Position numbers and translations under genes: made by a program. The notes under the pieces are model-generated. The model did no database searches and was not told the DNA's origin. It saw only the letters and a list, made by a program, of their open reading frames with translations. A DNA stretch of 64,000 nucleotides. It comes from Bacteroides bouchesdurhonensis. Its GTDB lineage: Bacteria > Bacteroidota > Bacteroidia > Bacteroidales > Bacteroidaceae. Positions 21,704 to 25,919 of the stretch are shown here, piece after piece. Numbering within the stretch: the first letter of the stretch is position 1; the number at the start of each line of letters is the position of its first letter. The DNA lies in contig NZ_LT707006.1 in the NCBI RefSeq assembly GCF_900155865.1, forward strand, positions 4,757,779 through 4,821,778. The letters run 5' to 3'.

Positions 21704-21733
21704 TTTGCATCTAACAGAAAAGTATTACTTTTG
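21704..21733 (+). promoter_or_regulatory. Promoter of the aromatic amino acid operon
   Basis: -33 TTTG (21704-21707), 18-bp spacer, -7 TACTTTTG (21726-21733). Transcription would begin near 21740, giving a leader RNA of about 215 nt before pheA. Confidence 0.75.
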
Positions 21734-21775
21734 CCCCATGAATTAAAAAATTAAAGCTAAAAAATCAAGATTCGA

Positions 21776-21862
21776 ATGAAATCATTTACTTATGCATATT
21801 ACTTCTTTTTTTACTTTTACTTTAGCAACAAAGTGGAGCGGGAGTTTGTATGTATCAAGTGA
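21776..21862 (+). CDS. Phe/Tyr-rich leader peptide of the aromatic operon
   Basis: A 28-codon ORF (ATG 21776, TGA 21860-21862). Residues 4-16 read FTYAYYFFFYFYF: six Phe and five Tyr in thirteen. It lies ~36 nt after the predicted transcript start and ~40 nt before an intrinsic terminator. This is the hallmark of a ribosome-sensed attenuator such as pheL, and the downstream genes make Phe and Tyr. Its 3' part (GGAGCGGGA, 21835-21843) doubles as the antiterminator arm. Confidence 0.9.
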   Translation: MKSFTYAYYFFFYFYFSNKVEREFVCIK

Positions 21863-21937
21863 CAGTGATGCTTAAGGACTGAATGAAGAAAGCAATCATA
21901 TGAATCCCGCTCCGACATGGACGCGGGATTTTTTTAT
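21835..21937 (+). promoter_or_regulatory. Transcription attenuator (antiterminator/terminator switch)
   Basis: GGAGCGGGA (21835-21843) is a perfect 9-bp complement of TCCCGCTCC (21905-21913), which is also the 5' arm of the terminator. A ribosome stalled on the Phe/Tyr codons (21785-21823) leaves 21835-21843 largely free, so the antiterminator forms and pheA is read. A ribosome reaching the stop at 21860 covers that arm and the terminator forms. The mechanism is inferred; the pairings are directly visible. Confidence 0.87.
21903..21936 (+). terminator. Intrinsic terminator of the phe/tyr attenuator
   Basis: AATCCCGCTCC pairs with GGAcGCGGGATT (one bulged C) around a 5-nt loop and runs into seven T. 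It is a strong terminator 20 bp before the pheA start, where it could only serve regulation. Confidence 0.92.
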
Positions 21938-21955: not shown

Positions 21956-22804
21956 ATGAAAAAGATAGCAATTCAAGGAACAATCGGCTCGTATCACGAC
22001 ATCGCCGCACACAAGTATTTCGAAGGAGAAGAAATAGAGTTAATCTGTTGTGCCAACTTCGAGGATGTGTTTACATCGATCCGGAAAGACAGTCAAGTCA
22101 TCGGGATGCTTGCCATTGAAAATACAATTGCAGGTAGTTTGTTACACAACAATGAGCTATTGAGACAAAGCGGCACACAAATTATTGGAGAATACAAACT
22201 GCGCATTTCTCACAGTTTTGTCTGTCTCCCGGATGAAGACTGGAAGGATTTGAACGAGGTGAACTCCCACCCTATCGCATTAATGCAATGCCGCGAGTTT
22301 CTGAATCAACATCCACAACTGAAAGTCGTAGAAGGGGAAGACACAGCACGCAGCGCAGAAATTATTAAAAAAGAGAACTTGAAAGGACATGCGGCCATCT
22401 GTTCCAAAACAGCAGCAGAGTGCTATGGAATGAAAGTTTTACAGGAAGGTATCGAAACCAATAAACACAACTTCACCCGTTTTTTAGTAGTGGCCGATCC
22501 TTGGCAGGTTGATGAACTTCGCCAACATCATACCAATGCTATCAATAAAGCAAGTATGGTATTCACACTGCCACATACAGAAGGAAGCCTTTCACAAGTG
22601 TTATCAATTTTATCGTTCTATAATATCAATCTGACTAAGATACAATCGTTGCCGATCATCGGGCGTGAATGGGAATACCAATTTTATGTAGATGTGGCTT
22701 TCAACGATTATCTGAGATATAAACAATCTATTACGGCAATCACTCCATTAACCAAAGAACTTAAATTATTAGGCGAATATGCAGAAGGAAAATCAAACAT
22801 ATAA
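21956..22804 (+). CDS. pheA: Prephenate dehydratase
   Basis: Monofunctional prephenate dehydratase of 282 residues, converting prephenate to phenylpyruvate for Phe synthesis. Seen: IQGTIGSYHDIAA, IENTIAGSLLHNN, the catalytic NFTRFLVV (TRF motif), and a C-terminal ACT domain (~190-275; LPHTEGSLSQVLSIL) for Phe feedback. The ACT ESRP-type segment reads LPIIGREWEYQFYVD. First gene of the attenuator-controlled operon; the aminotransferase ORF overlaps its end by 26 bp. Confidence 0.95.
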   Translation: MKKIAIQGTIGSYHDIAAHKYFEGEEIELICCANFEDVFTSIRKDSQVIGMLAIENTIAGSLLHNNELLRQSGTQIIGEYKLRISHSFVCLPDEDWKDLNEVNSHPIALMQCREFLNQHPQLKVVEGEDTARSAEIIKKENLKGHAAICSKTAAECYGMKVLQEGIETNKHNFTRFLVVADPWQVDELRQHHTNAINKASMVFTLPHTEGSLSQVLSILSFYNINLTKIQSLPIIGREWEYQFYVDVAFNDYLRYKQSITAITPLTKELKLLGEYAEGKSNI

Positions 22805-23960
22805 GATATCTCCAGCCGATAGGCTGAGTAGTGTCAGTGAATACTACTTCTCCAAAAAACTAAAAGAAGTAGCTCAAATGAATGCTGAGGGCAAAGATGT
22901 TATTAGTCTGGGAATCGGAAGTCCTGATATGCCGCCTTCGGAAAAGACGATCGAAACATTGTGCAACAATGCACACGACCCTAATGGACATGGTTACCAG
23001 CCGTATGTAGGTATTCCTGAACTTCGTAAAGCTTTTGCCAATTGGTATCAACGCTGGTATGGAGTAGAACTAGACCCAAATACTGAAATACAACCGCTTA
23101 TCGGTTCAAAAGAGGGTATCCTTCATGTCACGCTCGCTTTCGTTAATCCGGGAGAACAAGTTCTGGTCCCCAATCCAGGATATCCGACTTATACTTCTCT
23201 GAGTAAAATACTTGGTGCAGAGGTGATTAATTACGATTTGAAAGAAGAGGATGGCTGGATGCCGGATTTTGAAGCATTGGAAAAGATGAATCTAAGCCGG
23301 GTTAAATTAATGTGGACCAACTACCCCAATATGCCAACAGGTGCCAATGCAACGCCGGAACTGTACGAACGTTTGGTAGACTTTGCACGTCGCAAGAATA
23401 TCGTGATTGTCAATGACAATCCATATAGCTTTATCCTGAACGAAAAGCCAATTAGTATTCTCAGTGTACCGGGAGCTAAAGAGTGTTGCATCGAGTTCAA
23501 CTCCATGAGTAAAAGCCATAATATGCCGGGATGGCGTATCGGAATGATAGCCTCGAATGCAGACTTTATCCAATGGATCTTGAAAGTGAAAAGCAATATT
23601 GACAGCGGAATGTTTCGTGCCATGCAACTGGCAGCAGCCACCGCTTTAGAAGCAGAGAAGAGTTGGTACGAAGGTAACAACCAGAATTACCGGAATCGTC
23701 GTCATCTGGCAGGTGAAATTATGAATACACTGGGCTGCACGTACGATGAAAAACAGGTAGGTATGTTTCTTTGGGGAAAAATTCCTGCTTCCTGCAAGGA
23801 TGTGGAGGAACTGACGGAAAGAGTACTCCATGAAGCAAGAGTGTTTATTACACCTGGATTTATCTTCGGAAGTAATGGAGCCAGATATATCCGTATCTCT
23901 CTTTGCTGTAAAGACGGCAAACTGGCAGAAGCATTGGAGAGAATAAAGAAACTTTCCTAA
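22779..23960 (+). CDS. Class I/II PLP-dependent aminotransferase (aromatic, by context)
   Basis: Fold-type I aminotransferase of 393 residues. Seen: GIGSPDMPPSEKTIE at the N-terminus, YPNMPTGANA (PNxPTG-type motif), VNDNPYSF, and the PLP lysine in FNSMSKSHNMPGWRIG. In this operon it most likely makes Phe and Tyr from phenylpyruvate and 4-hydroxyphenylpyruvate, or transaminates prephenate; sequence alone gives only the class. It overlaps pheA by 26 bp, which suggests translational coupling. Confidence 0.9.
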   Translation: MQKENQTYKISPADRLSSVSEYYFSKKLKEVAQMNAEGKDVISLGIGSPDMPPSEKTIETLCNNAHDPNGHGYQPYVGIPELRKAFANWYQRWYGVELDPNTEIQPLIGSKEGILHVTLAFVNPGEQVLVPNPGYPTYTSLSKILGAEVINYDLKEEDGWMPDFEALEKMNLSRVKLMWTNYPNMPTGANATPELYERLVDFARRKNIVIVNDNPYSFILNEKPISILSVPGAKECCIEFNSMSKSHNMPGWRIGMIASNADFIQWILKVKSNIDSGMFRAMQLAAATALEAEKSWYEGNNQNYRNRRHLAGEIMNTLGCTYDEKQVGMFLWGKIPASCKDVEELTERVLHEARVFITPGFIFGSNGARYIRISLCCKDGKLAEALERIKKLS

Positions 23961-24045: not shown

Positions 24046-25107
24046 ATGGAACTCGAATCAATTTTATTACCGAACATTGAAGCGAAAAGACCGATTGTCA
24101 TCGCCGGTCCATGTAGCGCAGAGACTGAAGAACAAGTTATGGATACAGCCAAACAACTGGCTGCTAAAGGACTTAAAATATTTCGTGCCGGAATCTGGAA
24201 GCCACGTACCAAACCGGGAGGCTTCGAAGGTATCGGAGTAGAAGCCCTTCCCTGGTTGAAAGAAGTGAAAAAAGAAACAGGTATGTATGTTTCTACCGAA
24301 GTAGCTACCGCAAAGCATGTTTATGAATGTCTGAAAGCGGGTATTGATATTCTTTGGATAGGTGCACGTACTACTGCCAATCCCTTCGCCGTACAAGAAA
24401 TTGCGGATGCTTTGAAAGGGGTAGATATTCCTGTACTTGTGAAGAACCCGGTAAATCCGGATCTTGAATTATGGATCGGTGCTTTGGAACGCATCCATAA
24501 CGCTGGTTTGAAACGTCTTGGAGCTATCCATCGCGGTTTCAGCAGCTACGATAAGAAAATTTATCGCAATCTTCCTCAATGGCATATTCCAATCGAACTA
24601 CGCCGTCGTATTCCTAACTTACCTATTTTCTGCGATCCTAGCCATATTGGAGGTAAACGAGAATTGGTAGCTCCTCTTTGCCAGCAAGCAATGGATTTAA
24701 ATTTCGACGGCCTGATTGTAGAAAGCCATTGCAACCCGGATTGTGCATGGAGTGATGCTTCTCAACAGGTTACTCCGGATGTACTGGATTACATCCTCAA
24801 CTTATTAGTGATCCGTACCGAAACTCAAACAACAGAGAACCTATCCGAATTGCGCAAACAAATTGATGAATGTGACGATAACATCATCCAGGAATTATCG
24901 AAAAGAATGCGTGTAGCACGCGAAATCGGTACTTATAAAAAAGAACATGGAATCACTGTTCTCCAAGCAGGACGTTATAACGAAATTTTGGAAAAGCGTG
25001 GTGCACAAGGTGAGCATTGCGGTATGGATGGAGAATTCATGAAAAAGATATTCGAAGCCATCCACGAAGAATCTGTTCGCCAACAGATGGAAATCATTAA
25101 TAAGTAA
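24046..25107 (+). CDS. Bifunctional DAHP synthase / chorismate mutase
   Basis: Fusion of 353 residues. Residues ~1-265 are a type I-beta (KDO8P-like) DAHP synthase that opens the shikimate pathway from PEP and erythrose-4-P: IVIAGPCSAETEEQV, RAGIWKPRTKPGGFEG, GARTTANPF, KNPVNPD, HRGFSSY and FCDPSHIGGKR. Residues ~270-350 are an AroQ-type chorismate mutase: LRKQIDECDDNIIQELSKRM and VAREIGTYKKEHG. The C-terminal mutase makes prephenate for PheA and TyrA and probably also carries feedback inhibition. It lies 85 bp after the aminotransferase. Confidence 0.93.
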   Translation: MELESILLPNIEAKRPIVIAGPCSAETEEQVMDTAKQLAAKGLKIFRAGIWKPRTKPGGFEGIGVEALPWLKEVKKETGMYVSTEVATAKHVYECLKAGIDILWIGARTTANPFAVQEIADALKGVDIPVLVKNPVNPDLELWIGALERIHNAGLKRLGAIHRGFSSYDKKIYRNLPQWHIPIELRRRIPNLPIFCDPSHIGGKRELVAPLCQQAMDLNFDGLIVESHCNPDCAWSDASQQVTPDVLDYILNLLVIRTETQTTENLSELRKQIDECDDNIIQELSKRMRVAREIGTYKKEHGITVLQAGRYNEILEKRGAQGEHCGMDGEFMKKIFEAIHEESVRQQMEIINK

Positions 25108-25145: not shown

Positions 25146-25919
25146 ATGAGAATATTAATCCTTGGAGCCGGAAAAATGGGTTCCTTCTTTACCGATATAT
25201 TAAGTTTCCAGCACGAGACGGCCGTGTTTGACGTCAATCCGCACCAATTGCGTTTTGTCTATAACACCTATCGTTTCACTACACTAGAAGAGATTAAAGA
25301 ATTTGAACCGGAATTAGTTATCAATGCTGCTACTGTGAAGTATACTCTTGATGCCTTCCGTACCGTATTACCTGTGTTACCCAAGGACTGTATTATCAGT
25401 GATATCGCCTCGGTAAAAACCGGACTGAAGAAATTCTATGAAGAAAGTGGTTTCCGTTATGTCTCTTCTCACCCGATGTTTGGTCCTACTTTTGCCAGCC
25501 TCAGCAATCTGAGCAGCGAAAATGCAATTATCATCAGCGAAGGTGACCACTTGGGAAAGGTATTCTTCAAAGACCTTTACCAGACATTACGCCTGAATAT
25601 CTTTGAGTATACATTTGACGAGCATGATGAGACAGTGGCTTACTCATTGTCTATTCCATTTGTATCGACTTTTGTGTTTGCAGCAGTAATGAAACATCAG
25701 GAAGCACCCGGTACTACCTTCAAAAAACATATGGCTATCGCCAAAGGACTTTTGAACGAAGATGACTACCTGCTTCAGGAGATTTTATTCAATCCCCGTA
25801 CCCCGTCACAAGTAGCCAATATCAGGACAGAGCTAAAAAATCTGCTTGAAATCATCGAAAACAAAGATGCGGAAGGAATGAAGAAGTATCTGACGAAGAT
25901 TCGGGAGAAAATTAAATAA
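25146..25919 (+). CDS. tyrA: Prephenate dehydrogenase
   Basis: Prephenate dehydrogenase of 257 residues, converting prephenate to 4-hydroxyphenylpyruvate for Tyr. Seen: N-terminal NAD(P)-binding LILGAGKMGSFFTDIL, ISDIASVKTGL, and the conserved HPMFGPTFASL with the catalytic-site histidine. It lacks an ACT domain and is short for TyrA, but of normal length for Bacteroides. Last gene of the operon, ending at a strong terminator 30 bp downstream. The upstream attenuator thus controls both the Phe and Tyr branches. Confidence 0.93.
   Translation: MRILILGAGKMGSFFTDILSFQHETAVFDVNPHQLRFVYNTYRFTTLEEIKEFEPELVINAATVKYTLDAFRTVLPVLPKDCIISDIASVKTGLKKFYEESGFRYVSSHPMFGPTFASLSNLSSENAIIISEGDHLGKVFFKDLYQTLRLNIFEYTFDEHDETVAYSLSIPFVSTFVFAAVMKHQEAPGTTFKKHMAIAKGLLNEDDYLLQEILFNPRTPSQVANIRTELKNLLEIIENKDAEGMKKYLTKIREKIK

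Follow-up and report, generated by a model that had tools for sequence, protein, structure and literature searches.

A probable Phe/Tyr-sensing attenuator upstream of the pheA operon of Bacteroides and its conservation in Bacteroidota

In the stretch of Bacteroides DNA analyzed here (64,000 nucleotides, hereafter the window), a short open reading frame (ORF) rich in Phe and Tyr codons precedes the pheA operon. Does this leader belong to a switch that adjusts transcription of the operon to the supply of its end products and, if so, which parts of the RNA would do the switching? The original prediction was that of a Phe/Tyr-sensing ribosome-mediated attenuator of the pheA operon; this reading is supported by the codons and the covarying pairing that are conserved in related bacteria, from which we infer the switching itself. 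Very probably, the element attenuates transcription in the classical ribosome-mediated way, with three hairpins, and responds to the levels of charged tRNA-Phe and tRNA-Tyr.

Components of the leader and the operon

The components initially described, namely, the ORF, the complementary arms, the terminator, the promoter motif and the operon, are all present at the positions given for them (Table 1). Direct reading of the sequence confirmed the 28-codon leader with 6 Phe and 5 Tyr codons in a 13-codon stretch, the exact 9-bp match between GGAGCGGGA and TCCCGCTCC, the promoter motif TTTG-18-TACTTTTG, and the seven T residues that end the terminator, and Pfam matches bear out the gene identities in the predicted order pheA-aminotransferase-DAHPS/CM-tyrA. 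This gene order is unchanged in all 67 named loci for which enough sequence was available. The host is a Bacteroides, its PheA being 98.6% identical to that of B. faecichinchillae, the nearest named one at the fetched loci.

Table 1. Positions of the pheA leader components and operon genes in the window
Feature	Position	Strand	Description or evidence
-33 TTTG of a Bacteroides-type promoter	21704-21707	+	sequence
-7 element TACTTTTG (TAnnTTTG)	21726-21733	+	sequence
Leader peptide ORF	21776-21862	+	product MKSFTYAYYFFFYFYFSNKVEREFVCIK, 28 codons; kept 5' of pheA in relatives
Control codons 4-16	21785-21823	+	6 Phe and 5 Tyr codons
Strand 1 (5' arm of the 1:2 protector hairpin)	21795-21823	+	inside the control codons; two possible pairing registers
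Strand 2, antiterminator arm GGAGCGGGA	21835-21843	+	exact complement of 21905-21913
Conserved block CAAGTGACAGTGATGCTTAAGGA and neighbours	21856-21880	+	around and after the leader stop codon
Intrinsic terminator	21903-21935	+	hairpin 21903-21930, strand 4 at 21920-21930, T tract 21929-21935
Strand 3 TCCCGCTCC	21905-21913	+	partner of strand 2 or strand 4
pheA, prephenate dehydratase	21956-22804	+	Pfam PF00800, 1.9e-54
Class I/II aminotransferase	22779-23960	+	PF00155, 1.1e-61
DAHP synthase / chorismate mutase	24046-25107	+	PF00793, 5.4e-40; PF01817, 8.8e-26
tyrA, prephenate dehydrogenase	25146-25919	+	PF02153, 1.8e-09

Eleven of the 13 control codons specify the end products of the operon, which is the kind of run that distinguishes attenuator leaders, and codon 24, outside this run, is one further Phe. 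On both strands of the window, there are four ATG-initiated ORFs of 8-50 codons with at least seven Phe or Tyr within 14 codons; the pheA leader has 11 such residues, and the other three have 7, 7 and 8. Thus, the leader is richer in Phe and Tyr than expected by chance. A second ORF, in a different frame, overlaps it (21792-21875).

Between the leader and the first gene lies an intrinsic terminator, as is typical of attenuators. Its hairpin has a predicted folding energy of -16.1 kcal/mol, and the segment 21860-21940 yields a folding z-score of -3.8, with none of the 200 shuffled sequences folding equally well. A generic consensus scan for terminators and promoters reported neither this terminator nor the promoter of the leader and was not used as evidence; the stem rule of the scan seems to misfit the bulged terminator stem. 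Upstream of the leader, 18 nt separate TTTG from TACTTTTG, an arrangement that we take to be the Bacteroides promoter type.

Conservation of the leader and covariation of its arms

We collected 250 regions upstream of pheA, comprising 30 loci from the family of the window (including that of the window itself), 80 named loci, nearly all from Bacteroides and Mediterranea, and 140 hand-picked stretches (60 from the family, 50 from the order, and 30 from the class or phylum). Here, "family" denotes the window's own family in the genome collection, taken to be Bacteroidaceae, and PheA matches in the family list at about 29-31% identity were left out. Counts over the 250 regions refer to a non-random sample, in which the two genome collections share species.

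A Phe/Tyr-rich leader precedes pheA in 106 of the 110 loci L001-L110; three of the four exceptions are cut by contig ends, and the fourth, L047, retains the codon run and the arms without an ATG. When a uniform rule was applied, the leader was found in 217 of the 250 hand-picked regions, and a terminator directly follows in 204 of the 217, so that the conservation of the Phe and Tyr codons in relatives, which the original prediction had proposed as a check, came out positive. Among the 33 regions without a leader by this rule, five are shortened by contig ends (L044, L066, L090, L132, L192), eight, on inspection, seemingly retain a weaker or re-started unit (L047, L141, L149, L156, L158, L197, L206, L213), and L162 has a Phe/Tyr ORF with a GTG start. 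In the remaining 19 of the 250 regions, the unit is absent by the rule within about 450 nt of pheA, and no weaker one was noticed; the five of these regions that were viewed in full (L178, L186, L189, L219, L220) contain no unit within 450 nt upstream of pheA, so in these, it was either lost, never gained, or is located further upstream. Thirteen leader-bearing regions lack a terminator by the rule, but a stem can be discerned by eye in some of them, for example, L028 and L110.

From the 210 leader-terminator units, three, in which the hairpin was less than 25 nt from the codon run, were removed, leaving 207 units in 201 regions. In 205 of these 207, the leader peptide contains at least two Phe and at least two Tyr, with means of 6.5 Phe and 4.4 Tyr per peptide. 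Both amino acids would count in the signal. A Trp codon is also present in 22 of the 207 leaders, 20 of which are among the 63 units from outside the window's family (L229, L243, L248, L249 and others among L171-L250); this codon may serve the pairing or add a Trp signal. Of 204 units, 169 have a TAnnTTTG element no more than 90 nt 5' of the leader ATG, compared to 9.6 expected from mononucleotide shuffles, and a suitably spaced TTTG or TTG lies 5' of it in 152 of the 201 units with enough sequence (a raw count, without shuffle comparison).

The strands of the antiterminator change together across lineages. Co-changed arm pairs include GAGCGGGA/TCCCGCTC and AAGCGGGA/TCCCGCTT as well as GAGCAGGA/TCCTGCTC in L185, AAGGTGGGA/TCCCACCTT in the second unit of L171, AGCCGGGAT/ATCCCGGCT in L247 and AGGATTGT/ACAATCCT in L224. 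For a quantitative comparison, the 63 units from outside the family were grouped into 48 clusters (less than 70% identity), and the pairing of each cluster's own arms was compared to that of arms swapped between clusters. Own 2:3 arms paired at -15.9 kcal/mol versus -10.0 kcal/mol for swapped arms and were better in 47 of the 48 clusters (Wilcoxon p = 1e-14, kinship ignored), as expected of an antiterminator that excludes the terminator. For 1:2, the respective energies were -8.5 and -6.4 kcal/mol, with own arms better in 38 of the 48 clusters (p = 2e-6, kinship likewise ignored), whereas the negative control, 1:3, was flat (23 of 48, p = 0.57). For one further pairing analysis, which again supported covarying arms, the 207 units were thinned to 60 of the 63 from outside the family and 94 of the 144 from within it.

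Inside the family, we aligned 60 of the 124 distinct units, chosen for diversity (one row, L094, is incomplete). The 3:4 terminator stem pairs in 98.5% of the cells of this alignment, with covariation, and 2:3 pairs in 91.3%; for both helices, the pairing percentage and the covariation score were reached by none of the 500 shuffles. The number of pair types in 2:3, in contrast, does not exceed that in shuffles, 483 of 500 of which attain it, and 28 of 57 family units lack the outermost 2:3 pair, 21835/21913. Together with the swap comparison, these results answer in the affirmative the second check originally proposed, that for a covarying antiterminator pairing. The 1:2 hairpin, whose 3' side spans 21830-21852 in the window, pairs in 86.4% of the cells, compared to 49-74% for slid versions, yet without excess covariation in the family, where 387 of 500 shuffles pair at least equally.

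These observations bear on the simplest alternative, namely, that there is no switch at all, the hairpin constitutively terminating transcription of the upstream TPR gene, or the ORF being an unrelated gene for a small protein. A strong terminator behind a short ORF is what such an arrangement would look like, but the promoter motif 5' of the leader in most units, the covariation of the alternative pairing, and the fit between the Phe/Tyr codons and the function of the operon all argue against it, and we consider this explanation highly improbable.

The proposed switch and the role of the 1:2 hairpin

The strand 2 motif could be located in one register in 166 units, of which 130 have it in frame 2, 13 in frame 0 and 6 in frame 1, while the remaining 17 have it at the stop codon or 3' of it. 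Evidently, judging from the sequences, this arm is conserved as RNA rather than as peptide, which argues against a mechanism based on the nascent peptide. In such a mechanism, the leader peptide itself would act by arresting the ribosome, with the terminal residues KVEREFVC as the conserved part, and the C-terminal peptide is indeed well conserved across the Bacteroides loci. However, apart from the varied reading of the RNA arm in other lineages, many leaders stop only 2-4 codons past the run, so that we give nascent-chain arrest very little credence.

What is kept, instead, is a distance. In the middle half of the 207 units, strand 2 starts 10-12 nt after the end of the last Phe or Tyr codon, whereas the distance from the codon run to the end of the stop codon varies from 6 to 54 nt. 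A ribosome reaches about 12 nt ahead of its A site, close to the distance between the codons and the arm, and a ribosome with the last Phe or Tyr codon in the A site would overlap strand 2 by no more than 3 nt in 200 of the 207 units. In an occlusion model of the window's leader, 2:3 forms when the A site is on codons 1-16 and is blocked on codons 17-28, with the changeover after codon 16, where the run ends in a Phe; the last free codon shifts from 17 to 15 as the assumed leading edge is extended from +9 to +16 nt, and at +9, codon 1 is blocked as well. Hence, in the model, stalling on the control codons frees the antiterminator and further translation blocks it, which is the behavior expected of an attenuator.

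The classical three-hairpin attenuator would then work as follows. RNA polymerase would start near 21740 and transcribe the leader, and a ribosome would initiate at 21776. When Phe-tRNA or Tyr-tRNA is scarce, the ribosome would halt on codons 4-16, covering strand 1 and leaving strand 2 free to capture strand 3 as the latter emerges, such that no terminator could form and the operon would be transcribed. When both tRNAs are ample, the ribosome would proceed over codons 17-28, strand 2 would be blocked, 3:4 would form, and transcription would end near 21935. If no ribosome is present, 1:2 would form first, and termination would again be the default. In equilibrium folding of the full-length leader, the terminator is favored at 27 of the 29 ribosome positions, and therefore, antitermination must be kinetic. 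The original prediction further held that a ribosome finishing the peptide would itself cover the antiterminator arm. This applies to codons 17-28, on which the arm is blocked, but, once the stop codon occupies the A site, seven of the nine 2:3 pairs are possible in the model before strand 4 emerges.

The assertion that such a ribosome suffices was part of a two-state reading, which was originally preferred, with competition only between 2:3 and 3:4, no functional 1:2 hairpin, and the ribosome alone keeping strand 2 off strand 3. In its favor are the blocking of strand 2 while codons 17-28 are in the A site, in the model, and the covariation in the family, which was detected for 2:3 and 3:4 but not for 1:2. 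Nevertheless, when the leader is folded up to strand 3 without a ribosome, the 1:2 hairpin sequesters strand 2, and no 2:3 forms; the strands 1 and 2 of the same unit fit better than swapped ones, with the 1:3 control flat; and 1:2-type hairpins have been rebuilt with other bases, for example, CUCCUUC/GAAGGAG in L221. The two-state switch is therefore not favored, and we regard it as unlikely. Even so, in the three-hairpin attenuator, 1:2 is the weakest and the least certain of the hairpins; it is supported by the ribosome-free fold, the swap comparison, and the modest effect of synonymous codon permutation, which weakens it by only about 1.4 kcal/mol on average, and its fit may, in part, reflect pyrimidine-rich codons facing a purine-rich arm.

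Relationship to known leaders, and tandem units

No Rfam 15 family matched the pheA leader at its gathering threshold; with E-values up to 10, there were 19 hits, all below their thresholds. Among the families of special interest, Phe_leader (RF01859) scored 16.6 bits against a threshold of 55 (E 3.4), which we treat as no match, and Bacteroid-trp (RF01692) had no match in the window although this model does recognize the genome's own trp leader. A riboswitch or a T-box, that is, a metabolite- or tRNA-binding leader with an incidental ORF, could likewise present a terminator and an antiterminator upstream of an amino acid operon. Such a leader, however, would leave the Phe/Tyr run and its fixed distance to strand 2 unexplained; neither a T-box nor any other Rfam family was found at the gathering score, and, besides the parts of the proposed attenuator, the leader showed just one conserved stretch, the short block at its stop codon (Table 1). 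Accordingly, the chances of this explanation appear minimal.

The enterobacterial pheA and trp leaders (RF01859, RF00513) combine a peptide rich in the regulated amino acid with 1:2, 2:3 and 3:4 hairpins, an intrinsic terminator, and a biosynthetic operon, and the Bacteroides leader resembles them in all these respects. Unlike in these attenuators, the Bacteroides leader employs both Phe and Tyr codons, its strand 1 lies inside the codon run, and the stop codon is usually behind the start of strand 2. Some attenuators in Bacteroidetes/Chlorobi were reportedly predicted by Vitreschak et al. in 2004, and Lopatovskaya et al. are said to have published a comparative paper on attenuation in 2010.

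Several published elements come closer to the present one in taxonomy or in function. Bacteroid-trp, titled "Bacteroidete tryptophan peptide leader RNA" in Rfam and included in a table of PMC2864571, is from the same phylum but differs in codons, genes and sequence. In Flavobacterium psychrophilum and other Flavobacteriaceae, a structured 5' element without an Rfam hit was reported upstream of pheA, along with strong clues that leader peptides attenuate amino acid operons (PMC9723704). The gene is the same, and the class-level relatives surveyed here have Phe/Tyr leaders before pheA; Phe/Tyr codons, the pairing and a cross-phylum analysis do not appear in the portion of that text available to us. 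The uORFC-13-1 motif upstream of aroF in Acholeplasma (24 examples), with a terminator and U-rich codons that reportedly include at least one for Phe (PMC8632094), is similar in preceding an aromatic pathway gene but comes from another phylum, and no Tyr run is mentioned in the part of the paper accessible to us. In B. thetaiotaomicron, leader-peptide-like small ORFs have been described in long 5' UTRs, pheA not being named in the corresponding part of the report (PMC7366714). Titles and the beginnings of abstracts, among the matches listed, described no Phe/Tyr leader in Bacteroides. Thus, the kind of attenuator is already known, whereas the pheA member, the dual codons and the cross-family covariation would seem to be absent from print, at least among the matches listed.

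Other amino acid operons of the same genome have leaders of similar design. The hisG leader encodes MKYTATHHHHHFPNE, with five His codons, and the ilvD leader encodes MNMLHTSINLAVLHIIRVVVVPSRA, with runs of Ile and Val codons, each followed by a terminator; neither matches an Rfam family at the gathering score. In a simple duplex test of the arm after the codons against the terminator arm, equally good pairing was found in 5 of 500 shuffles for his and in none of 500 for ilv. The trpB leader has three Trp codons (WWW) and matches Bacteroid-trp at 107.5 bits, but its 2:3 pairing is not above shuffles in the same test (73 of 500 equally good). The ORF MMNCYPHTVTSMCMCTMTLRG upstream of thrA is short and includes codons for Thr, Met and Cys; a clear terminator was not seen. 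A search of the whole genome with the pattern TTYTAYTTYTAYTTY yielded 7+3 matches versus 8+4 for the reversed pattern and, hence, no evidence of further Phe/Tyr leaders.

The least expected by-products of this analysis are tandem copies of the leader and a conserved block that follows it. Two Phe/Tyr leaders in series, within about 450 nt before pheA, were found by the uniform rule in 7 of the 250 regions, from 6 families (L171, L175, L177, L179, L210, L217 and L228), and by eye in L222. In six regions, both units have a terminator and arms of their own; in L171, the second terminator was seen by eye only. Tandem attenuators are known in Salmonella mgtCBR, according to the part of PMC3641672 available to us, and no tandem amino acid attenuators that respond to the same signal were seen among the matches listed. 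These copies are a natural experiment on serial attenuators.

Taken together, these findings incline us, with some reservation, to the view that, in Bacteroidota, aromatic amino acid synthesis has an old and common regulator in a dual Phe and Tyr attenuator without an Rfam family. Compensating changes would allow it to be followed from Bacteroides to class-level relatives; it would be part of a wider attenuation regime, as suggested by the His, Trp and Ile/Val leaders of the same genome, and would have been doubled in series in several lineages, where the response to one signal would become graded. Such a regulator extends attenuation, known mainly from Proteobacteria, to another phylum and provides a point at which the control of aromatic amino acid synthesis in gut Bacteroides can be tested. 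Moreover, the divergence of the leaders separates the fixed feature, the 10-12 nt between codon run and strand 2, from the free ones, the stop codon and the reading frame of the arm, and the pheA leader could become an Rfam family.

Finally, of the 25 alignment columns that make up the block at and beyond the leader stop codon, 19 are at least 90% conserved in 72 leaders of the Bacteroides set, compared to 3 of 22 in the spacer 21881-21902. This block is, perhaps, a site of polymerase pausing. A short ORF with the consensus M[YCR]QVTV[MT]LK[ND] overlaps it in 60 of 80 cases and is disrupted by indels in others.
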